Shown: piece after piece, positions 50,718 to 62,854 of the stretch
Numbering within the stretch: the stretch's first letter is position 1
How the letters are laid out: each line of letters begins with the position of its first letter
NCBI RefSeq assembly: GCF_010882175.1
Contig: NZ_WKLH01000003.1
Coordinates: 124,001 to 188,000 of the forward strand
Direction: 5' to 3'
Source: Mangrovibacterium lignilyticum
GTDB taxonomy: Bacteria > Bacteroidota > Bacteroidia > Bacteroidales > Prolixibacteraceae
DNA length: 64,000 nucleotides
Program-made: the position numbers and the translations under genes
The notes under the pieces: generated by a model
The model's database searches: none
What the model saw: the letters and a program-made list of their open reading frames with translations, nothing else
Told to the model about the DNA's origin: nothing

Positions 50718-50725
50718 TACTTTTG
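50718..50725 (+). promoter_or_regulatory. promoter -7 box of B12 unit 2
   Basis: tacttttg, in the same 10-mer ctacttttgc as before riboswitch 1, close to the riboswitch 5' edge. No distinct -33 box. Confidence 0.6.
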
Positions 50726-50730
50726 CGACG

Positions 50731-50922
50731 GATTTGGTTCCAGCGCTTGTGTTCGCACAAGCCGGATGAAAAGGGAATCCGGTGTAATTCCGGAGCTGTA
50801 CCCGCAGCTGTAAACCTCCAGAAATCTTTCTGAGACCCCTGCCACTGTTTAATACCGATAGCTATCGGGACGAGACGGGAAGGCATCAGAAAGAGAGGTG
50901 AGCCAGAAGACCTGCCTAATCA
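50731..50922 (+). ncRNA. cobalamin riboswitch 2 (upstream of btuB)
   Basis: Conserved parts in order: atttggttcca at the 5' side, a hairpin gcttgtg-ttcg-cacaagc (50745-50762), agggaatccggtgtaattcc, acccgcagctgtaaac, gccactg, gggaaggc and gaggtgagccagaagacctg. Between the gccactg and gggaaggc segments it carries the extra palindrome ccgatagctatcgg. It precedes btuB by about 100 bp. As with riboswitch 1 no classic terminator is seen, so translational control is likely. Confidence 0.95.
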
Positions 50923-51020
50923 TTTTAAGTATTAACAATAGCTTCGGGAATAAAGCTGGTGAAATAGTATAATCAGGTATTTTTCACAATTTTATCCTAA
51001 GCTCATATTCTGAAAAAGAA

Positions 51021-52964
51021 ATGAGAAGGTTTTTTCTATTCGCAGGTTTGCTGGCTCTGTCAACAGGCGGCTTAAAAGCTCAGGAAGAGCAAATGGCAGA
51101 TTCTGTGCTCTTACACGAAGTGGCAACTTACGCCCCTTACAAAAAGTACCAGGCTGGTGCTAAAGTCGAGTCCATTCCGGCCGAACAAATAGAGATTACC
51201 GAAACGGGAAGCTTAACTGATTTGTTATCCCGGTTTAGTCCGGTTTACCTGAGGTCCGATGCTGGTGGATTGGCAACGATCCGATTGCGGGGAACTTCAG
51301 CAGATCACACATCGGTGAATTTCGGTGGTATCAATATCAACTCGTTAACGCTGGGGCAGTCGAATTTTAACAGTGTGCCGCTTTACCTGTTCGACGGGGT
51401 CGATTTACAATACGGTTCTTCATCGGCTGTGAATGGCTCAGGATCTATTGGTGGAGCCTTATATCTTGGGCTGCTCTCGAACTGGACAAACGGACAGCGT
51501 GTACATGCGACTGCATCAGTCGCTTCATTTGGCGAGCAGTTGTACGGAACCAAGTTATACTTCGGAAACGGTAAGTTCGAGTCGGTAACACGTTTGTATT
51601 ATTTCACCCGGAAAAACGATTTCGATTTTTATTACGCTCCCAACGACAGGTATTATACCCAACGTGGTGCAGTTATTGAAAATAAAGGATTACTGCAGGA
51701 ATTTAATTATCGTTTTAACCAAAAAGAATGGTTGAAAACGGCTATTTGGCTGGAACACGACTGGCACGAAAAGCAACCGGAAATGAGTTCGTCGATTGCA
51801 GATAATCTGGCAATTGAGGACCTGGACAACAAACATATTCGCTTTTGGTCGGAATATGAAAACGGCAAACGTGCATTTAAATATAAGGCGGGGCTGGGTT
51901 TTGTTCACGATATGCAGGTCGATGCAGGTCGCACAGCTCAAAAAATCGGCACTGACCGACTAATCGCTGAGCTGGAGGGGAAACAGGATTTTAACGTTCG
52001 GCTAGGATACAAAGTCGGGCTTAAATATGTCTACGTTAAACCCGACGTGTATGCGTATTCGTCTGATGTGATTGAGTATGAACAACGGACCGATCTCTAT
52101 GCTTCCGCATTTTACAGTCCGTTCAACCGCATGAAACTTACCTTAAATCTACGGCAGCAGTTTGTCAGCAATTTTACGGTACCATTTACGCCTTCGATTG
52201 GAGCCGAATACAGGCTTTTTATGACCGATAAGGAGGTTTTGAAAGTGACTGGGAATGTCGCAAGCAGTTACAGGATTCCGACTTTTAATGACCGTTTCTG
52301 GGGGACGCAGGGTAATCCTGATTTGAATCCGGAAAAGGGAATGAATTACGAAATAGGTTTTCAGTACCAGTACTGTTCGTCCTGGCTTCAATCGGATGTT
52401 AAGTTGAATGCGTTCTATATGGATGTCGACGACTGGATCGAATGGCGTCCAACAGGAACCAATAGTGAATTTGAAGCTGAAAACCGCTCGCGGGTGGTTA
52501 GCAAAGGCATCGAATTTCAGTCAAACAACGAATTGAACTGGAACCAGGTTCGTCTCAACCTGCGCTTGAATTACAGCTTCAATCCAACTGAAATAAAAGA
52601 AGATTCGTTGAAATCGATGATTGGGCAACGATTGATCTATACCCCCGAGCATGTCGGAAATGTATTTCTAATGGCAAGCTACCGGCAATGGGGAATTTAT
52701 ACAGACTGTGCCTATACAGGCAACCGACAGGTGGATTATTCAGGCAATGTTTACAATCCTGAAGGGAATGTGCTTGATGCTTATTTTTTGCTCAACGCCG
52801 GACTGAACCGGAAGATCGAGCTATGGAAACAATCGTTTAATCTTCGTTTTAGTGTTCGTAATCTGTTGGATAAGGACTATCAAAATCAGCTGAACTATGC
52901 CATGCCCAGAAGGAGTTTCCAGTTTAGCCTGGCTACCGATTTGAAATTTTTAAATAACAAGTAA
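51021..52964 (+). CDS. btuB: TonB-dependent outer membrane cobalamin receptor (BtuB-like)
   Basis: 647 residues with a signal peptide (FLFAGLLALSTGGLKAQ). The plug is at about 40-150 (GSLTDLLSRFSPVYLRS, then GLATIRLRGTSADHT, and GSSSAVNGSGSIGGALYLG), followed by a 22-strand-type barrel ending in a typical last strand (RRSFQFSLATDLKF). IRNLLDKDY-like sequence near the C-terminus (VRNLLDKDYQNQLNYAMP) is the TonB-receptor tail. Cobalamin is inferred as cargo from the riboswitch and from btuG 15 bp downstream. Confidence 0.92.
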   Translation: MRRFFLFAGLLALSTGGLKAQEEQMADSVLLHEVATYAPYKKYQAGAKVESIPAEQIEITETGSLTDLLSRFSPVYLRSDAGGLATIRLRGTSADHTSVNFGGININSLTLGQSNFNSVPLYLFDGVDLQYGSSSAVNGSGSIGGALYLGLLSNWTNGQRVHATASVASFGEQLYGTKLYFGNGKFESVTRLYYFTRKNDFDFYYAPNDRYYTQRGAVIENKGLLQEFNYRFNQKEWLKTAIWLEHDWHEKQPEMSSSIADNLAIEDLDNKHIRFWSEYENGKRAFKYKAGLGFVHDMQVDAGRTAQKIGTDRLIAELEGKQDFNVRLGYKVGLKYVYVKPDVYAYSSDVIEYEQRTDLYASAFYSPFNRMKLTLNLRQQFVSNFTVPFTPSIGAEYRLFMTDKEVLKVTGNVASSYRIPTFNDRFWGTQGNPDLNPEKGMNYEIGFQYQYCSSWLQSDVKLNAFYMDVDDWIEWRPTGTNSEFEAENRSRVVSKGIEFQSNNELNWNQVRLNLRLNYSFNPTEIKEDSLKSMIGQRLIYTPEHVGNVFLMASYRQWGIYTDCAYTGNRQVDYSGNVYNPEGNVLDAYFLLNAGLNRKIELWKQSFNLRFSVRNLLDKDYQNQLNYAMPRRSFQFSLATDLKFLNNK

Positions 52965-54683: not shown

Positions 54684-55193
54684 ATGGCAACAATAACACT
54701 CGTAACAGGAGGTGCCCGGTCGGGCAAGAGTAGCTTTGCGCAGCACATGGCCGAGTCGAAAAGCGATCGGCCAGTGTACCTGGCTACGGCCCGCATTTGG
54801 GACGAAGACTTTGCTGAGCGGGTGAAACGCCACCAAAGCGACCGCGATGAGCGCTGGGAGAATGTGGAAGAAGAAAAGCAACTGTCGAAACACGATTTCA
54901 GCGGCAAAGTAGTGCTGATGGATTGCGTCACGCTATGGCTAACCAACTTTTTTCACGACAGCGGCTACAAACTCGATGAAGCGCTTAAAGCTGCCAAAAC
55001 CGAATGGGAGCAGTTTATTCAGCAGGACATGGACCTGATTGTGGTGACCAATGAGTTGGGCATGGGGGTTCATCCGGAGCACGAAACGGCTCGCAAATTT
55101 GCCGACCTGCAAGGCTGGATGAATCAACACATCGCCAAGGGTGCCAACGATGTTTATTTGCTGGTTTCCGGTATTCCGGTGAAGATAAAATAA
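54684..55193 (+). CDS. cobU: adenosylcobinamide kinase / adenosylcobinamide-phosphate guanylyltransferase
   Basis: From the ATG at 54684 (MATITLVTGGARSGKSSFAQ) the product is 169 residues, close to CobU. The frame is open to 54606, but that part is repeat-type spacer. P-loop GGARSGKS, the histidine-bearing RVKRHQSDRDERW (guanylylated-His region) and VVTNELGMGVHPEHE are present. It phosphorylates adenosylcobinamide and then adds GMP, activating the corrinoid for CobS. Confidence 0.93.
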   Translation: MATITLVTGGARSGKSSFAQHMAESKSDRPVYLATARIWDEDFAERVKRHQSDRDERWENVEEEKQLSKHDFSGKVVLMDCVTLWLTNFFHDSGYKLDEALKAAKTEWEQFIQQDMDLIVVTNELGMGVHPEHETARKFADLQGWMNQHIAKGANDVYLLVSGIPVKIK

Positions 55194-55273: not shown

Positions 55274-56278
55274 ATGAAACTAAAAGACCAATTACAACAA
55301 AAGATTGACCTGAAAACAAAGCCAACCGGCGCCTTGGGCCAACTGGAACGGATTGCCTTACAAATCGGTTCTATTCAAAATACATTGACTCCCGAATTGA
55401 AAAAGCCGGCGATGCTGGTCTTTGCCGGCGACCACGGCCTGGCCGATGCCGGTGTGAGTCCTTATCCGAAGGAAGTAACCTGGCAAATGGTGATGAACTT
55501 CTGCGCGGGCGGTGCAGCGATTAACGTTTTCTGCAAGCAGAACGGGATTGATCTGAAAGTGGTTGATTCCGGGGTCGATTTCTACTTTCCAAAGGACCTT
55601 CCGGTAGTTGACTGTAAAGTGGCCATGGGAACCAAAAATATGCTGGATGAACCGGCTATGACTGTAGAGCAATGTCGCGAAGCACGCAACCTGGGTGCCG
55701 AGCTGGTGAAAGCAGAAGCTGCTGCCGGTTGCAATGTGATCGGTTTCGGAGAAATGGGAATTGCCAATACTTCGGCATCATCCCTGTTGATGCATCGTTT
55801 TATGGACTTGCCGATTGAACAATGTACCGGGCGCGGTGCGGGTATGGTGGGCGAGAAGCTCGACTTTAAAACGTCGGTGCTGAAAACCGTTTCGGAGAAG
55901 TATAAGCCGGAAACTGTTGAGGAAACTTTGGCTACCTTTGGTGGTTTCGAAATTGCCATGATGGTTGGTGCCATGCTTGAGGCCAAGAAACAGGAAATGA
56001 TTATCCTGGTGGATGGCTTCATTACGACTGCTGCGACATTGACAGCTATTCAGTTTGACGCGTCAGTTCGTGAGAATTGTATTTTCTGCCATGCTTCGGA
56101 AGAACAAGGGCACCAGATGATCCTGGAGCATTTGGACGCTGAGCCGGTATTGAGTTTAGCGATGCGTTTGGGTGAAGGTTCCGGCGCTGCGGTAGCCTAT
56201 CCGGTTATCCAGTCGGCAGTGAACTTCCTAAACCAAATGTCGAGCTTTGAAGACGCCGGTGTTTCGAATAAAGAATAA
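55274..56278 (+). CDS. cobT: nicotinate-nucleotide--dimethylbenzimidazole phosphoribosyltransferase, copy 1
   Basis: 334 residues. It makes alpha-ribazole phosphate from NaMN and the lower-ligand base. Landmarks: KTKPTGALGQLERIALQ, FAGDHGLADAGVSPYPKEV, CAGGAAINV, GFGEMGIANTS (Glu matching E174 of Salmonella CobT) and LGEGSGAAVAYP (matching catalytic E317). The segment normally GRGTGL reads GRGAGM. A second, more divergent homologue lies at 59124-60197. It is flanked by cobU and cobS in unit 2. Confidence 0.93.
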   Translation: MKLKDQLQQKIDLKTKPTGALGQLERIALQIGSIQNTLTPELKKPAMLVFAGDHGLADAGVSPYPKEVTWQMVMNFCAGGAAINVFCKQNGIDLKVVDSGVDFYFPKDLPVVDCKVAMGTKNMLDEPAMTVEQCREARNLGAELVKAEAAAGCNVIGFGEMGIANTSASSLLMHRFMDLPIEQCTGRGAGMVGEKLDFKTSVLKTVSEKYKPETVEETLATFGGFEIAMMVGAMLEAKKQEMIILVDGFITTAATLTAIQFDASVRENCIFCHASEEQGHQMILEHLDAEPVLSLAMRLGEGSGAAVAYPVIQSAVNFLNQMSSFEDAGVSNKE

Positions 56279-56373
56279 AGCAAGATAAGGAGACCTTAGA
56301 CGTCGGATAATAGATAGCTTTTTTGTTGTTTTTGTCTGGTGTCTAAGGTCTGACAGCTAAAAATCTGATTTAA

Positions 56374-57138
56374 ATGAAGAAGCAAGTCCAACTCTTTCTC
56401 ACAGCCGTCATGTTTTATACGCGCATTCCGGTTCCGGCTACACTGGAGTATTCACCCGAGCGTTTAAACAGGGCAACACGCTATTTCCCGCTCATCGGCT
56501 GGATTGTGGGTGGAGCAGGAGCCGCTGTTTTCTATGGATTAGTGCAGATCCTGCCGCTTCAGCTAAGCGTATTTTTAAGTATGCTGGCAACAATCTTCCT
56601 GACCGGTGCTTTTCACGAGGATGGCTTTGCCGATTTTTGCGATGGCTTTGGCGGCGGCTATACCCGCGAGAAGATCCTCACCATCATGAAAGACAGCCGC
56701 ATCGGAACTTATGGTTCGGTTGGATTGATTGGCATGTTGGGAACCAAGTTTTTGGCGCTTCAATCCATGCCTGTTTATGAGATTCCGATGGCCATGGTTG
56801 CTGCACACGCGTTCAGCCGGTTGATGCCGGTTCTGATCATTTTTAACAGTTGGTACTCGCGCGACGATGAATCGAGCAAAAGCAAACCGATCGGTAAAAA
56901 AGGCAAGAACAGCGATCTGATCATAGCCATAATTGTCGCTTTAGTACCGATGGCTTTCCTGCCCTGGCAGCTCATGGCCGTGGCTTTACCCGCCGCGTTG
57001 TTGCTGACATTCCTCTTTAAGAAATACACCGAGCGCAAAATTGGCGGTTACACCGGCGATGGCCTGGGAGCCCTGCAACAGCTCGTCGAGGTGTTGTTCT
57101 ATTTGTGTTTGCTGGGCGTAAGCGGGTTGGCTTTATAA
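56374..57138 (+). CDS. cobS: adenosylcobinamide-GDP ribazoletransferase (cobalamin synthase)
   Basis: 254 residues, integral membrane, five to seven helices. FYTRIPVPATLEYSPE near the N-terminus and the catalytic acidic motif FHEDGFADFCDGFGGG (about 81-96), followed by REKILTIMKDSRIGTYG, are diagnostic. It joins AdoCbi-GDP and alpha-ribazole(-phosphate) to give adenosylcobalamin (phosphate). The spacers on both sides carry long inverted repeats. Confidence 0.95.
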   Translation: MKKQVQLFLTAVMFYTRIPVPATLEYSPERLNRATRYFPLIGWIVGGAGAAVFYGLVQILPLQLSVFLSMLATIFLTGAFHEDGFADFCDGFGGGYTREKILTIMKDSRIGTYGSVGLIGMLGTKFLALQSMPVYEIPMAMVAAHAFSRLMPVLIIFNSWYSRDDESSKSKPIGKKGKNSDLIIAIIVALVPMAFLPWQLMAVALPAALLLTFLFKKYTERKIGGYTGDGLGALQQLVEVLFYLCLLGVSGLAL

Positions 57139-57151
57139 AGGGAAGTCACCA

Positions 57152-57234
57152 TTTCTACTAAGGTTATGGAATGAAAATAAGGTTTTAGTTTCCTGCCTTT
57201 TAACCTTATTCCCTGTATTCAACCTTAGTAGAAA
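57152..57234. repeat. nested inverted repeat between cobS and cobC
   Basis: Outer arms of 14 bp, tttctactaaggtt (57152-57165) / aaccttagtagaaa (57221-57234), are perfect. Inside is a second perfect 9-bp pair aataaggtt (57176-57184) / aaccttatt (57202-57210). No T run follows, so it is not a simple terminator. Confidence 0.85.
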
Positions 57235-57314
57235 ATGCAGATGACACGCTTTAACATACCTTGTTACCTTATTTTTGTCTGAATATTTAAATTTGCTGCA
57301 CAAATAACAATCAC

Positions 57315-57848
57315 ATGAAAATTACCGCTATCCGCCATACCCGGGTTGCTGTTGCTGCCGGAATCTGTTACGGGCAGACGGACGTGCCTTTAAACGGGAC
57401 TTACCCCGATGAATTGCAAATGGTGCAGTCGAAGCTTAACGGACAGGTTTTTGACGCGGTATTTTGCAGTCCGCTGACGCGCTGCCGGCAGTTGGCCGCG
57501 GATTTGTTTCCACGTGAAACGATTCAGTTTGATGAACGCCTGAAAGAACTGAACTTCGGCAACTGGGAAATGCAGCATTGGAACGATCTTAGCGACAGCC
57601 CGGAAGCGAAAGCCTGGTTCAATGATTTTGTGGAGGTTCGGACGCATGGCGGCGAGTCGTTTCGCGACCAGATTAACCGCACGGCAGCTTTCCTCGAAGA
57701 TTTGGAAGCGATGAACTACACGGCAGTGGCTATGGTCGCGCATGGTGGTATTCTGCGGGCCCTCGACTGTCTGCTCAACGGAACAGCCCCGCTCGATGCC
57801 TTTAAAAATCAGGTGGATTACGGCGACGTCATTGCATTCAACCTTTAG
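57315..57848 (+). CDS. cobC: alpha-ribazole phosphatase (histidine phosphatase family)
   Basis: 177 residues. Phosphoglycerate-mutase-like fold: ITAIRHTRVAVAAGICYGQT (catalytic His 8; RHT as in many CobC, not RHG), FCSPLTRCRQLA, LNFGNWEMQHWNDL and VAMVAHGGILRALD (second His). It removes phosphate from alpha-ribazole-P or adenosylcobalamin-5'-P. Last gene of unit 2; its stop abuts that of a convergent membrane-protein gene (57849). Confidence 0.9.
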   Translation: MKITAIRHTRVAVAAGICYGQTDVPLNGTYPDELQMVQSKLNGQVFDAVFCSPLTRCRQLAADLFPRETIQFDERLKELNFGNWEMQHWNDLSDSPEAKAWFNDFVEVRTHGGESFRDQINRTAAFLEDLEAMNYTAVAMVAHGGILRALDCLLNGTAPLDAFKNQVDYGDVIAFNL

Positions 57849-58115
57849 TTACTTTTCGACCTTGTCGGCCGGTTCCAGCTTGTCCAGATCGGGTGTGGAA
57901 AACACCGGCGTCATGAATTTCAGGAAGCCCTGGCGGTAAATGGCCCGAAAAACAATCACTCCAAACCAAATGGCTCCAAGCAGCAGCACCGCTGCAATGA
58001 TAAATCCCGCGACCGATTGCAGTTCGTTGTAAATTAAAAAGCTGAACATGGCAGCGCCGGTAACCGGCAGCATGGCCGTGAGCACGCCGGCAAAAATGCG
58101 GATAAGTTGTTTCAT
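57849..58115 (-). CDS. small two-helix membrane protein
   Basis: 88 residues with two transmembrane helices (about 8-30 and 36-58) and a cytoplasmic-type tail (FSTPDLDKLEPADKVEK). No family recognised. Its stop is adjacent to the cobC stop with no intergenic base. It breaks the cob gene run and may simply be a resident gene. Confidence 0.6.
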   Translation of the reverse strand: MKQLIRIFAGVLTAMLPVTGAAMFSFLIYNELQSVAGFIIAAVLLLGAIWFGVIVFRAIYRQGFLKFMTPVFSTPDLDKLEPADKVEK

Positions 58116-58214
58116 GATGAGTGATTTTTCGGTTAGTACGTTTAAAGGTAGAGAAAATCAGGCTTCGTTGTTCGCTGGGTAAATCAGCTTTGTGAGCCGT
58201 TCGCCGGGCGGTTT

Positions 58215-58673
58215 TTAGTCGTAAAAGTAATTCGATTGGCGGCCATGTTTCCTGAGGCTGCGGTATTCCCAGGGTTGCATGTGTTGGTAAGCCCTGAAAA
58301 ACTGGCTGAAACTACTCGACGACAGTCCCATCATTTTGCCGACCTCCTTAAAGCTCCAATCCGTTTGCACAAGTAAATCGCAGGCAACCAGCCGCACGTA
58401 CTCGTTAATCCAGTCGTGCGTGCTCATGCCCGACATGCACCTGATGGCGCCATCGAACTGGCGCGTGTCTGCCTGCATCAGTTTGGCGTACCATTTCGAG
58501 CTTTGTTTCCCGTACTTCCGAACCTGTTCGGCAAACAAATCCATGTAGCTGTTGCCGGTCGGTTGATGACTTTGCGTGATGGTGGAGAAGCGATGGTTTG
58601 ATGCTTCGGCAAGCGCAACAAGTCCGTTGTAGACGTTGTCGGGGGTGATTAAGGGGTACTCAATAGGCGTCAT
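58215..58673 (-). CDS. AraC-type helix-turn-helix regulator, short form
   Basis: 152 residues from the ATG at 58671-58673 (MTPIEYPLITPDNVYNGLVA). The C-terminal AraC fold (about 60-140) has YVRLVACDLLVQTDWSFKEV and GLSSSSFSQFFRAYQHMQPW. The N-terminus is too short for a cupin sensor. The frame is open to 58823, but that upstream part is AT-rich and overlaps the first dyad at 58745-58778, so the later ATG is preferred. It lies between B12 units 2 and 3; with the upstream dyads it may regulate itself or unit 3. Confidence 0.8.
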   Translation of the reverse strand: MTPIEYPLITPDNVYNGLVALAEASNHRFSTITQSHQPTGNSYMDLFAEQVRKYGKQSSKWYAKLMQADTRQFDGAIRCMSGMSTHDWINEYVRLVACDLLVQTDWSFKEVGKMMGLSSSSFSQFFRAYQHMQPWEYRSLRKHGRQSNYFYD

Positions 58674-58744
58674 GGGCTGTTTTTGCCTTAAGTTACGACG
58701 AAATTTTAGGAATGTGTGCATTTCGGTTAAATATTGCAACTGAT

Positions 58745-58905
58745 ACTTTATAAAAATGGGAAAAATGATAAAATATTGAACGAACCATGCGGTGAAAGAT
58801 GAGCGGTTGAAGGAATGGGTCAAGCGCTATTTTATAAAAATGTACAATCTGATAAAGTATTCGGATGATAACTTTATGAAAATGTGCAAAATGATAAAGT
58901 TATCG
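58745..58905. repeat. three copies of a ~34-bp dyad element
   Basis: Copies at 58745-58778, 58829-58863 and 58871-58905. Each starts a(c/t)tttat, has aaaatg in the middle and ends tgataaa(a/g)t. The third is the best dyad: gataactttat / ataaagttatc, a perfect 11-bp inverted repeat around a 16-nt centre. Copies 2 and 3 lie 42 bp apart, copies 1 and 2 about 84 bp apart, close to whole helical turns. Confidence 0.8.
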
Positions 58906-59016
58906 TGAAACAAGGAGTTGCTTTTTCAGTTTTTCGCTTCGCCGGCCGGACAATGACCGTTGTCTTGTTTTTCGGCTTGGTTAAATTGGCTTAACGCAGT
59001 GGTGTTCGAGCCGGAT

Positions 59017-59051
59017 TTTGGGCCTGTTTCAGTCTGAAAACTGTATCTTTG
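59017..59051 (+). promoter_or_regulatory. promoter of B12 unit 3 (cobT2-cobQ-cbiB)
   Basis: -33 box tttg (59017-59020) and -7 box tatcttTG form (tatctttg, 59044-59051) with 23 bp between them, a good match to the Bacteroidota TTTG/TAnnTTTG promoter. The leader would be about 65 nt. Confidence 0.65.
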
Positions 59052-59123
59052 GCAGCACTTTCGAAGCGGGGCTGCGGGATTGGAGCCCGGAGCCTTTCTT
59101 CCGGATAAATCAACAAAAACCAA

Positions 59124-60197
59124 ATGCAACACAACGAATTTGAGATCCCCGCAATTGATGAGGGATTACGCGGGGCCATTCAGCATAAACTCGACAACAA
59201 AGCGAAACCGGTTGGCTCGCTTGGCCGGCTCGAATCGCTGGCTATGCAGGTGGCGCTCGCTCAACATACACTGACACCGGAATTGCAAAAACCGGTGATG
59301 TTAACGGTGGCGTCGGACCACCTGATTTGTGCCGAGGGCGTGAGTGCCTGTCCGGTGGATATTACCTGGCAACAGGTGCTGAATTTCCTGCAGGGCGGGG
59401 GCGGAATCGGCCTTTTATCGCGCGTTTGCGGCATGGATTTGCACGTGGTGGATGCAGGGGTGAATTTCGATTTCAACCCACACCCGAAACTGATTGATGC
59501 CAAGGTTCGCAAAGGTTCGCGCAACTTTTTGTACGAGCCGGCGATGACCATGGACGAGTGCCTGCAGGCGTTCAATAACGGCCGGAAGATCGTCGCCGGG
59601 TTCAACGCGAAAGGCACGAATATCATCGGTTTTGGCGAAATGGGTATCGGGAATACAACGCCTGCTTCGGCCTTGATGGCCATTATTTGCCAGCTGCCGG
59701 TGAAGGACTGTGTCGGGCCGGGTGCCGGTCTCGATCAGGCCGGTGTTTCGCATAAAGGCCGGGTGATTGAGCAGGCCATTGCCAGACACGGTGTGTCGGA
59801 GAATGTGCTCGAAAACCTGGCGCGTTTCGGTGGTTTCGAGATCGCGACCATTGCCGGTGGAATGTTCGAAGCAGCTGCCCGGCGCATGGTCATTCTGGTC
59901 GATGGTTTCATTACCACGGCGGGCATGTTGGTGGCTCAGCAGCTGAACAAACGGGTGCGCGACTATGCGGTTTTTGCGCACGTGTCGGACGAGCAGGGGC
60001 ACCGCAAAATGCTCGACTATATGCACGCTGATCCGGTGTTGGCGTTCGGCCTTCGTTTGGGTGAAGGAACCGGCGCAGCATTGGCGTACCCGATGATGCA
60101 AGCCGCGGTGGCAGTGCTGTCGGAAATGACAAGCTTCGAGGAAGCGCAGGTGATCAATACCAGCCACATCCGGTTTGAAGAAGTGGTTGGGAAGTGA
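59124..60197 (+). CDS. CobT-family phosphoribosyltransferase, divergent copy 2
   Basis: 357 residues, homologous to copy 1 along its whole length. AKPVGSLGRLESLAMQVALA, GFGEMGIGNTTPAS and LGEGTGAALAYP keep both catalytic glutamates. Differences from the standard: AGDHG is ASDHL, GGAAI is GGGGI, and GRGTG is GPGAG. It could use another lower-ligand base or form a heteromer with copy 1, as the ArsA/ArsB pair does for phenolic bases; this is inference. First gene of unit 3, ahead of cobQ and cbiB. Confidence 0.9.
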   Translation: MQHNEFEIPAIDEGLRGAIQHKLDNKAKPVGSLGRLESLAMQVALAQHTLTPELQKPVMLTVASDHLICAEGVSACPVDITWQQVLNFLQGGGGIGLLSRVCGMDLHVVDAGVNFDFNPHPKLIDAKVRKGSRNFLYEPAMTMDECLQAFNNGRKIVAGFNAKGTNIIGFGEMGIGNTTPASALMAIICQLPVKDCVGPGAGLDQAGVSHKGRVIEQAIARHGVSENVLENLARFGGFEIATIAGGMFEAAARRMVILVDGFITTAGMLVAQQLNKRVRDYAVFAHVSDEQGHRKMLDYMHADPVLAFGLRLGEGTGAALAYPMMQAAVAVLSEMTSFEEAQVINTSHIRFEEVVGK

Positions 60198-60256
60198 TCA
60201 GTGGGAAGAGGTCATTAGTGGTCATTCAGTGGTCATTAATGCTCGTCCTTGTTTTT

Positions 60257-60363
60257 CATCCTCTGACTCCCTAAAGGGAGAACCAAACAAGTACTGCGTG
60301 GCGAGTGCGCCAAGAGTAATTTGAAAAGGCGAAGCCAAGTCCCCTTCAGGGGATTTAGGGGTA
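60257..60363. repeat. REP-like element with two hairpins
   Basis: Left hairpin ctccctaaagggag (in 60268-60281) and right hairpin agtccccttcaggggattta (near 60338-60357) with ggcgaag-type sequence between. The right half resembles a cccctaaatcccct repeat that I recall from many Bacteroidota spacers. It lies between cobT2 and cobQ. Confidence 0.6.
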
Positions 60364-60433
60364 AAAAAATGTATCGAATTGATTGTCTCACGACTGTTTG
60401 AAACTTGAAATTTAGAACTTGGAACTAGAAACA

Positions 60434-61912
60434 ATGAATAAACTCAAACCCATTCTTTTTGTCGGTACCGGCTCCGATGTGGGCAAATCGGTGATTAACG
60501 CGGCCTTTTGCCGCATCTTCAAACAGGATGGTTACAGCCCCGCGCCCTTCAAGGCGCAGAACATGTCGCTGAACTCGTTTGCCAGTGCCGAGGGTCTGGA
60601 ACTTGGTCGTGCACAGGCGGTGCAGGCCGAAGCTTGTGGCATTCCCTGCCTCAGCGCCATGAACCCCATTTTGCTGAAACCGACCAGTCATACCAAGGCG
60701 CAGGTGGTGCTCAATGGTAAGCCGATGGGCGATCAAACGGCCCAGGAGTATTTCCTGAAAACCGATCGCGATTTCCTGTTTGCTGAGGCCATGAAAGCCT
60801 GGCGCTCGCTGGATGCGAAGTATAATCCCATTGTAATGGAAGGTGCGGGAAGCATTTCCGAGGTCAACCTGTGGGACAAAGACATCACCAATATGCGGGT
60901 CGCCCTCGAAACAGGCTCGCCCACGATTTTGATCGCCGATATTGATCGGGGAGGCGTGTTTGGCAGTGTTTACGGCACCATTAAGCTGTTGCCCGAAGCC
61001 GAGCGAAAGCTGATCAAGGGGATTCTCATCAATAAGTTTCGGGGCGATATTGCGCTCTTTCACGACGGTCGTAAAATGCTCGAAGATTTGACTGGCATTC
61101 CGGTAATTGGCGTGGTGCCTTACTTCACCGATATCCATGTGGAGCAGGAAGACAGCGTGGTGATTGACTACAAACGCGGCAGTGTTCAGGATAACGGGCA
61201 GGTGAATGTGGCCGTGGTTTTGCTGCGGCACATGAGCAATTTCACCGATTTCAACATGTTGGAGCGCATGCCCGATGTGAACCTCTATTATTCGGCCAAT
61301 CCGGAAGAAATTGCCAAGGCTGATTTGGTGCTCGTGCCGGGATCGAAGAATACCATCTCCGACCTCATGTACCTGCGCGAACGCGGACTGGCCAAAGCCA
61401 TTCTGCAAGCTGCTGAAGCCGGTAAAGGGGTATACGGCATTTGCGGAGGTTACCAGATTTTGGGGGAAGAAATTCGTGATCCGCACCATGTGGAAGGCGA
61501 TATTGAAGCCATTCCGGGTCTTGGCCTGCTGCCGGTAGTTACAACCTTGACGAAGGAAAAGCGCACGGTGCAAACAGAATTCCGATTTGCCGGTCGCGAC
61601 GAAAGCTGTTCGGGCTACGAAATCCACATGGGCACGACCGAGCTGAAAGGCGGGCAGCCTTTGTGCACCCTGAATGATGGCAGTACTGATGGTTGCCTGG
61701 CGTCGCCCAAGCTGTGGGGCAGCTACCTGCACGGCATCCTCGACAACAAAGCTGTGGTTGAAGAAATGCTCAAAGCCAACAAGCTCAAGGCTGAAGTTAC
61801 CGAGTTCGACTACGCGAAGTTCAAGGAAGAACAATACAACAAACTCGCCGATCACGTTCGTGGCTATGTGAACATGGACTATGTGTATTCGGTGATGCAG
61901 TTGGACGAATAG
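60434..61912 (+). CDS. cobQ: cobyric acid synthase
   Basis: From the ATG at 60434 the product is 492 residues. Walker A FVGTGSDVGKSVINAAF at the start, then SLNSFAS, EGAGSISEVNLW, and the glutamine-amidotransferase half with the nucleophile Cys in YGICGGYQILGEEI (about residue 337) and SYLHGILDN. It amidates the b, d, e and g side chains of adenosylcobyrinic a,c-diamide. The TTG-headed extension from 60419 is spacer repeat. Confidence 0.94.
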   Translation: MNKLKPILFVGTGSDVGKSVINAAFCRIFKQDGYSPAPFKAQNMSLNSFASAEGLELGRAQAVQAEACGIPCLSAMNPILLKPTSHTKAQVVLNGKPMGDQTAQEYFLKTDRDFLFAEAMKAWRSLDAKYNPIVMEGAGSISEVNLWDKDITNMRVALETGSPTILIADIDRGGVFGSVYGTIKLLPEAERKLIKGILINKFRGDIALFHDGRKMLEDLTGIPVIGVVPYFTDIHVEQEDSVVIDYKRGSVQDNGQVNVAVVLLRHMSNFTDFNMLERMPDVNLYYSANPEEIAKADLVLVPGSKNTISDLMYLRERGLAKAILQAAEAGKGVYGICGGYQILGEEIRDPHHVEGDIEAIPGLGLLPVVTTLTKEKRTVQTEFRFAGRDESCSGYEIHMGTTELKGGQPLCTLNDGSTDGCLASPKLWGSYLHGILDNKAVVEEMLKANKLKAEVTEFDYAKFKEEQYNKLADHVRGYVNMDYVYSVMQLDE

Positions 61913-61927
61913 TGACAAAGAATTACA

Positions 61928-62854
61928 ATGGAACTCCTCATACTACCTCTTCTCATTGGTTTTGCTTTGGATTGCCTGCTGGGCGATCCGCGTTGGCTGC
62001 CTCATCCCATCCGATTGTTTGGCTGGTTGATTAGCTGGTTCGAAAAACGGTTGAACCGGGGTAGCTACCGGAAGTTGAAAGGTGCGATGTCGACGGTTTT
62101 ACTGGTGGGAGGCACCTGGATGCTATTGTTCCTTTTGTTTGGATGGTTGAAGAGTTTTCCAACTGCCTTTATCGTGGTCGCGTCGGTTTTCGTCTTTTTC
62201 GGCCTGGCCAACCGCAGCTTGATTTACGAGTCGTGGCTGGTGATCCGTGCTTTGGAGAAAGATGGATTGGAAGCCGGTCGCAAACAGTTAAGCTACATAG
62301 TTGGTCGCGACACAACCAAACTGAACGAGCAACAGATCCGCACTGCCGTATTGGAAACAATGGCTGAAAACCTCAGCGATGGCGTGATTGCACCCTTGTT
62401 TTTTTACGCCTTAGGCGGCGTTCCCGGGCTTTTCGCTTTTAAAATGGCCAGCACCCTCGATTCGATGATTGCTTACAAAAGCGAGCGCTTTAAGAGCTAT
62501 GGCTGGTTTGCCGCCCGCCTGGATGATTTGTTGAACCTGATTCCCGCGCGCCTCACCGCTTTGCTGATGGTTTTGGTGAGCTTTAGCTGGAGTGGCCTTA
62601 CGCACATCTTCCGCTACGGACACCAACACGCCAGCCCCAATGCTGGCTACCCCGAAGCCGCTTTGGCCGGCATCCTGAAATGCCGTTTCGGCGGGCCAAA
62701 TGTTTACCATGGCAAGTTGGTGGAGAAACCTTACATCGGCCACAACCAAAAGCGAATAGCCAGTCGCGACTTTTGGTTTACTTCTTATGTGAATACAAGT
62801 GCAACTGTTGTAATGATGGCCGGGATGGTGCTGGTTTACATCATCCTGAACTAG
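61928..62854 (+). CDS. cbiB: adenosylcobinamide-phosphate synthase (CbiB/CobD)
   Basis: 308 residues, membrane protein. LDCLLGDPRWLPHPIRLFGW near residue 15-34, VIAPLFFYALGGVPGLF, LDSMIAYKSERFKSYGWFAAR and GYPEAALAGILKC-type sequence are diagnostic. It joins cobyric acid with aminopropanol(-phosphate). Starts 15 bp after cobQ. No threonine-phosphate decarboxylase gene is in the window to supply the aminopropanol arm, so that gene lies elsewhere or salvage suffices. Confidence 0.94.
   Translation: MELLILPLLIGFALDCLLGDPRWLPHPIRLFGWLISWFEKRLNRGSYRKLKGAMSTVLLVGGTWMLLFLLFGWLKSFPTAFIVVASVFVFFGLANRSLIYESWLVIRALEKDGLEAGRKQLSYIVGRDTTKLNEQQIRTAVLETMAENLSDGVIAPLFFYALGGVPGLFAFKMASTLDSMIAYKSERFKSYGWFAARLDDLLNLIPARLTALLMVLVSFSWSGLTHIFRYGHQHASPNAGYPEAALAGILKCRFGGPNVYHGKLVEKPYIGHNQKRIASRDFWFTSYVNTSATVVMMAGMVLVYIILN

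Follow-up and report, generated by a model that had tools for sequence, protein, structure and literature searches.

Two CobT types with alternative base-pocket residues share a cobamide locus in Mangrovibacterium lignilyticum

The lower base attached to a cobamide decides which cobamides a bacterium and its neighbours can use. According to the accessible text of PMC6461909, this base is predictable for 58% of producers, and arsAB is called there by two cobT homologues in tandem; the accessible text of PMC4657239 cites a study of seven CobT homologues that preferred 5,6-dimethylbenzimidazole (DMB), with the exception of Veillonella ArsAB (phenolic bases). The same source treats the BluB/CobT2 fusion of Propionibacterium freudenreichii, in which the product of a gene named cobT2 helps choose the lower base. 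Two CobT homologues in one locus are also known from ArsAB of Sporomusa ovata (PDB 4hdk and others). Here we analyse a 64,000-nucleotide stretch of the Mangrovibacterium lignilyticum genome (contig NZ_WKLH01000003.1, positions 124,001 to 188,000; hereafter the window) that carries two cobT genes, cobT1 and cobT2. Their products, T1 and T2, belong to CobT types that differ at two residues of the base pocket.

Both cobT genes encode intact members of the CobT family. Each is a complete open reading frame (ORF) on the plus strand (Table 1), the pair is 48% identical, and a whole-genome PF02277 search matched these two and no third CobT. Scores against TIGR03160 (cobT_DBIPRT) were 422 and 423 bits for a cut-off of 319, and both copies likewise exceeded the PRK00105 cut-off, in agreement with a preliminary description of the locus as holding two diverged CobT paralogues. 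In the family alignment, the catalytic residues E174 and K213 are present in 20/20 T2 and 47/47 T1 rows, and E317 in 20/20 and 46/47, the remaining T1 row being partial with a gap there. The catalytic roles of E174 and E317 are known from the accessible portion of PMC9561151. GEMG and LGEG occur in both copies, so the catalytic glutamates are kept in each, as that description had stated. Its motif contrast stands for copy 2 (ASDHL and GPGAG) and needs correction for copy 1, which reads GRGAG; the GRGTG ascribed to it occurs in the three other genomes of its genus. ASDHL is no general property of T2, because 9 of the 20 T2 proteins have G after DH and the others L, E, W, or H.

Structure models were obtained for T2 (predicted local distance difference test, pLDDT, 90.5) and T1 (pLDDT 93.5). 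The T2 model has the CobT fold, matching PDB 4kqi with Z 50.0 and a root-mean-square deviation of 1.5 over 335 residues, and matches ArsA entries with Z 45. Ratios of nonsynonymous to synonymous substitution (dN/dS) within or near the genus are 0.04–0.09 for T2 (8 of 15 pairs computable) and 0.02–0.06 for T1 (6 of 15); saturation prevented the calculation for the other pairs, and dS is above 2 in several of those calculated. The dN/dS values and conserved residues rule out copy 2 as a decaying copy. Codon usage also differs: GC content at third codon positions is higher in cobT2 (0.67) than in cobT1 (0.54), with the same direction in two other loci of the genus (L034, L035) and no such contrast in Sunxiuqinia elliptica (L046) or L048. 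Within the genus, dS is lower for cobT2 than for cobT1.

The two CobT types are told apart by positions 80 and 88 of the base pocket (Salmonella CobT numbering throughout) and not by the motifs cited earlier. At positions 80/88/175, T1 proteins have Y or F/M/M and T2 proteins C or V/Q/M. Across 203 rows, a set that includes a few genes fetched twice, positions 80/88 read Y/F with M in 164, C/V/S with Q in 37, and S with V in 2; no row joined Y/F to Q or C/V/S to M. The joint switch of these two residues between T1 and T2 is the new observation of this work. The titles of PDB 4kqj and 4kqk give Salmonella CobT S80Y/Q88M/L175M with p-cresol, and positions 80 and 88 bear on the base because the 4kqj variant changes them with p-cresol bound. 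The Y/M/M triad is found in ArsA and Thermus CobT as well. It also occurs beyond single-domain CobTs: BluB–CobT fusion ORFs from class or phylum relatives within Bacteroidota (L111:6770-8455, L113:6505-8211, L155:7275-9053, L173:7338-9029) all carry the Y/M pocket, with N-terminal domains at 157–228 bits (BluB cut-off 150) and CobT halves that exceed their curated cut-off too. A phenol reading of the T1 triad was dropped, since these fusions share it and DMB fits as well.

Genomes with two CobTs usually combine the two pocket states. We searched 140 genomes of the family Prolixibacteraceae (order Marinilabiliales), M. lignilyticum included, and 58 carried CobT. They yielded 47 T1 rows of at least 250 residues, plus tblastn fragments in five genomes, and 20 T2 rows, one per genome (one alignment omits identical cores and one of the T1 fragments from G016, while for another G016 fragment the pocket residues were read separately). 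Both states were present in 15 of the 58, T2 alone in 5 (G040, G074, G075, G077, G124), and T1 alone in 38, four of which are known from fragments only and one of which (G130) holds a T2 remnant. All 15 two-copy family genomes pair M88 with Q88. One of them, G115, has an M88-type copy outside the T1 clade beside its Q88 copy, a second pairing of both states.

Two full copies are rare in the phylum at large. A spread sample comprised 392 genomes with completeness of at least 90%; CobT matches came from 109, and only M. lignilyticum had two full copies; G310 and G399 show CobT pieces. Five named genomes outside the family, chosen not at random but from the top 80 among 577 confirmed relatives found with a T2 query, because that search yielded two loci or a double locus for them, each gave exactly two CobT matches in whole-genome searches, one match of the Salinivirgaceae genome spanning a stop codon. 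Three of these five (two Marinilabiliaceae and the Salinivirgaceae genome) hold an M88–Q88 pair, and 18 of the 20 two-CobT genomes looked at combine both states. In Labilibaculum sp. K2S, the only two cobT genes are adjacent, 39 bp apart (L214:6903-9044); both have Y/M, and the first has K at position 175 (GEKG).

Phylogeny places both types among Bacteroidota CobTs. A careful tree of 93 of 208 rows, selected by identity and length and built without 6b5f and most Chlorobia-like rows, had not fully settled bootstrap values; in it ArsA, ArsB, Salmonella, and Thermus, the first two being long branches, lie outside a Bacteroidota-type clade (84 rows, 100/100) that holds T1 and T2. Inside this clade, all 26 Q88 rows group together (90/90), comprising Bacteroidaceae and order-mates (S/Q), Marinilabiliales (C/Q or V/Q), and otherwise-labelled metagenome-assembled genomes (MAGs; L141, L147, L159). 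An earlier quick tree had placed the S/Q order-mates elsewhere, not joined to T2. Approximately unbiased tests reject neither T2 with the S/Q order-mates (P = 0.68) nor a single clade of all family CobTs (P = 0.59); the deep branching is therefore uncertain, and a single origin of Q88 is likely, though not proven, from these trees. Recent local duplication in the window genus is rejected, as T2 groups (90/90) with Bacteroidaceae and Marinilabiliaceae Q88 rows. Neither copy groups with ArsA or ArsB.

The two genes sit in different surroundings at the window locus (Table 1). T1 is flanked by cobU and by cobS–cobC, whereas cobQ and cbiB lie downstream of T2. The RF00174 riboswitch lies 4.3 kb before cobT1 and heads the plus-strand run from the TonB receptor gene to cobC, a run that we infer to be a single transcript; the neighbours and the riboswitch of copy 1 are as the preliminary description had them. 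Its account of copy 2 as head of a riboswitch-free unit with cobQ and cbiB also holds for this genome: a relaxed search of 57840–60450 found no riboswitch at E ≤ 1, the sole match being to a long noncoding RNA family at E 0.51, below the cut-off. About 75 bp upstream of the T2 start, the element TATCTTTGG is unchanged in all four genomes of the genus and resembles a Bacteroidota promoter motif. Because the pattern occurs no more often than chance predicts (3 found against 4.2 expected), it is conservation in these four genomes that supports it as a candidate promoter. A sigma-70 and terminator scan gave nothing exceeding shuffled sequences.

Table 1. Features of the cobamide locus, in window positions
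Feature	Position	Strand	Basis and remarks
Cobalamin riboswitch aptamer (RF00174), upstream of btuB-like gene	50718..50933	+	109.7 bits
TonB-dependent receptor gene, btuB-like by position	51021..52964	+	TonB barrel and plug above cut-off
cobU	54684..55193	+	PRK05800 169 bits, cut-off 161; ORF listed from TTG 54606, ATG 54684 the likelier start
cobT1 (T1), CobT with Y80/M88/M175 pocket	55274..56278	+	ORF, family models, alignment
cobS, the genome's only one	56374..57138	+	Profile match, genome search
cobC, alpha-ribazole phosphatase	57315..57848	+	TIGR03162 above cut-off
88-aa hydrophobic ORF between cobC and cobT2	57849..58115	-	Without Pfam match; similar ORFs in L034, L036
AraC-type helix-turn-helix ORF between cobC and cobT2	58215..58823	-	HTH_18 above cut-off
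Candidate promoter of cobT2 unit, TATCTTTGG	59017..59051	+	Invariant in 4/4 genomes of genus
cobT2 (T2), CobT with C80/Q88/M175 pocket	59124..60197	+	ORF, family models, alignment, structure model
cobQ, cobyric acid synthase	60434..61912	+	Profile match; ORF listed from TTG 60419
cbiB, adenosylcobinamide-phosphate synthase	61928..62854	+	Profile match

Separate control of T1 and T2 is a derived change of the window genus, because relatives keep both in one run. The order T1-cobS-cobC-T2-cobQ stands on one strand in seven family genomes outside the genus (G006, G010, G013, G015, G016, G126, G131) and in the Salinivirgaceae genome; cobU precedes T1 in each of them but G016, where the contig ends inside T1. 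cobC and T2 overlap in L037, L039, L040, L041, L048, and L141, and spacers of 103 bp and 420 bp separate them in L046 and L038, respectively; the gap is 1275 bp in M. lignilyticum and 611 to 1679 bp in L034–L036 of its genus. Cobalamin riboswitches precede the joint run in all five loci searched (L037, L038, L040, L046, L048), and co-transcription of T1 and T2 is likely in many relatives. Different control of the two copies, as first proposed, thus applies to the window genus and not to these eight genomes. In eight T2-less loci, cobC overlaps cobQ in six (L053, L055, L057, L062, L066, L071) and an AraC ORF lies between them in two (L054, L056). One further locus, from G130, a genome with CbiF, has a 60-aa cobT2 start, a stop, and then cobQ (L047:9860-10042). 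From these joins, the AraC ORF occupying the place of T2, and the remnant, T2 was probably lost several times.

T2 tends to accompany genes for corrin-ring synthesis. Among the 140 family genomes, 15 have a CbiF that reaches its cut-off, and one of these 15 (G076, 77% complete) had no CobT match. Intact T2 occurs in 12 of 14 CobT-bearing genomes with CbiF and in 8 of 44 without (Fisher P = 9e-6, kinship ignored); in genus g6, with 23 CobT-bearing genomes, it occurs in 4/4 with CbiF and 0/19 others. T2 lies near cbi genes in G040, G041, G069, G071, and G115. At least two ring genes are nearby in 7 of 32 Q88 rows (one repeat among the 7) and 2 of 91 M88 rows, a count made without L001–L032, L073–L102, and any stretch whose flanks total less than 8 kb, and in which L139, L140, L145, and L146 repeat earlier loci, so some genes count twice.

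M. lignilyticum probably makes the corrin ring itself, judging from its gene content. On another contig, a cluster encodes CbiJ, CbiH, CbiG, CbiF, CbiL, CbiE, CbiD, CobB/CbiA, and CbiC above curated cut-offs; CobD falls just under its own (284 vs 290.55 bits), and where CbiT would be expected stands an ORF whose Pfam matches are all to general methyltransferase families. This sets the genome apart from most of its phylum, in which complete ring synthesis stands at 0.6% in the accessible part of PMC6461909. In L044 (332-6592) ring genes are fused in pairs, CbiJ–CbiD, CbiG–CbiF, CbiE–CbiT, and CbiH–CbiC, whereas CbiJ, CbiD, CbiG, CbiF, CbiE, CbiH, and CbiC are separate ORFs in M. lignilyticum. 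The genome has one ThiC, and a CbiZ search in it gave no match. Adenine or externally acquired bases are likely substrates.

The explanation that we judge on balance somewhat probable, from sequence comparison, is a division of labour: a salvage-operon CobT and a de novo-pathway CobT with different base preferences, working through one CobS. T1 and T2 would be two active CobTs of different lineages, joined from two modules. The T1 module would be the operon behind the riboswitch, for uptake and nucleotide-loop assembly (btuB-like gene, cobU, cobS, cobC), and the T2 module would belong to corrin synthesis (cobQ, cobD, cbiB, cbi genes). Each CobT would most likely act as an ordinary homodimer that transfers ribose phosphate from nicotinate mononucleotide to a lower base, and because the genome has a single CobS, both products would have to pass to it. 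The Y80/M88 and C80/Q88 pockets would then most likely confer different preferences, that of T1 being of a kind that serves externally acquired benzimidazoles and that of T2 serving another base, for which adenine is a guess. T2 is the only CobT found in the genomes of L049 and L060, whose operons hold cobQ, cobD, cbiB, cobS, cobC, and cobU (the L049 CobD was tested by search), so T2 appears to work without T1. Activity, oligomeric state, base preference, and a dual cobamide pool are predictions, whereas the intact family members, their catalytic residues, the pocket switch with its distribution, and the single cobS are observations. Of the second lower-ligand base proposed earlier, two intact CobTs with different pocket residues remain; the ArsA-like letters of copy 1 are not phenol-specific.

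Several results weigh against this explanation. Two of the five named two-copy genomes, Labilibaculum and one Flavobacteriaceae MAG, pair M with M. Among the 20 T2 genomes, eight show no CbiF that reaches the cut-off (the assembly of one, G106, is 85% complete), and CbiF occurs without an intact T2 in G127 and G130; together these contradict a strict tie of T2 to de novo synthesis. Y/F–M is the usual state among the rows examined and is that of Thermus; it is seen with p-cresol (4kqj), phenols (ArsA), and BluB, and thus names no single base. BluB–CobT fusions make it compatible with DMB, and the Q state has no BluB link, a contrast that is suggestive only: by blastp a BluB homologue is fused in 4 and nearby in 11 of 164 M88 rows and absent from 37 Q88 rows, but 15/164 vs 0/37 is statistically weak with kinship ignored, and it is limited by short flanks (many of only 1.5 kb) and by the family's own lack of BluB. 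None of the benzimidazole-synthesis genes searched was found: BluB exceeded its cut-off in 0/140 family genomes, as did BzaD, which also gave 0/14 in controls and so had no positive control (BzaD was the only Bza protein searched).

The main rival is redundancy—isozymes activating the same bases, with T2 retained because it adds dosage or is expressed separately, and with the pockets differing as a neutral trace of lineage history—and we regard it as possible, if rather doubtful. Genomes with T1 alone (38/58, including the four fragment-only cases) or T2 alone (5/58) and the probable repeated loss of T2, read from the cobC–cobQ joins, the AraC ORF at the T2 site, and the L047 remnant, would suit this reading, and the grouping of all 26 Q88 rows (90/90) means that the state may just mark descent. 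Against this stand the presence of both states in 15/15 two-copy family genomes, even in G115 with its M88 copy outside the T1 clade, and the location of the switch at residues bearing on the base, as the 4kqj title indicates. An ArsAB-like heteromer, as raised in the preliminary description, that activates phenolic bases would draw on likely co-transcription in many relatives and on the ArsA triad Y/M/M in T1. We nonetheless consider it very improbable: neither copy shows the ArsB deletion of the K213 loop, the 100/100 clade with both copies excludes ArsA and ArsB, the genes are not adjacent, and an obligate heteromer is unlikely because each type is the sole CobT found in some relatives. Equally little credit goes to T2 being inactive or catalysing another reaction; its changes near conserved motifs (ASDHL, GPGAG) might hint at this, but catalytic residues persist in 20/20 rows, dN/dS is well below 1, and T2 is the sole CobT found in the genomes that hold the L049 and L060 operons with their other late cobamide genes.

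Division of labour at this locus may reflect a wider pattern, which we offer tentatively and on the strength of alignment and distribution. Bacteroidota CobTs would fall into two functional classes according to the two-state pocket (aromatic 80 with Met88 vs small 80 with Gln88), and some marine-type members of the phylum would keep both and so run two cobamide lines through one CobS, with one base for de novo corrinoid and external benzimidazole for salvaged corrinoids. The pair suggests, without proving it, that a cell can attach two kinds of base. A two-residue pocket switch with both states in one cell is also a natural test of the determinants of CobT preference. The literature searched, which largely lay outside subscription journals and in part was accessible only as excerpts, yielded no account of such CobT pairs in Bacteroidota.

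Compared with described systems, the locus holds a real pair of CobTs from two pocket classes and no ArsAB. Canonical CobT shares with T1 and T2 the catalytic residues, family models, and nucleotide-loop operon context. The fold is also the same: the T2 model matches Salmonella CobT (PDB 1d0s/1jh8) with Z 49.7–49.9 and Thermus CobT (1j33), whose Y/M/M pocket is like that of T1, with Z 48.6. Canonical CobT differs in number, as there are two per genome here, and in the pocket, which is C80/Q88/M175 in T2 and Y80/M88/M175 in T1 vs S80/Q88/L175 in Salmonella (implied by the 4kqj title). T1 has the Y/M/M of ArsA; unlike in S. ovata ArsAB, however, there is no ArsB-like loop loss (the K213-bearing loop, lacking in ArsB, is present in T1 and T2 in the alignment), the genes are apart, their place in the tree is separate, and each type also occurs alone. 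The tandem arrangement by which PMC6461909, as far as its accessible text goes, calls arsAB is absent: cobS, cobC, and two opposite-strand ORFs separate T1 from T2, and cobS and cobC do so in relatives. Such an adjacency rule would miss separated pairs and would call the adjacent Labilibaculum pair arsAB. As far as the accessible text of PMC4657239 describes it, CobT2 of P. freudenreichii is fused to the DMB synthase BluB, unlike T2, which is unfused in a genome with no BluB above the cut-off; the Bacteroidota BluB–CobT fusions (L111, L113, L155, L173) resemble that protein and carry the T1 pocket state.

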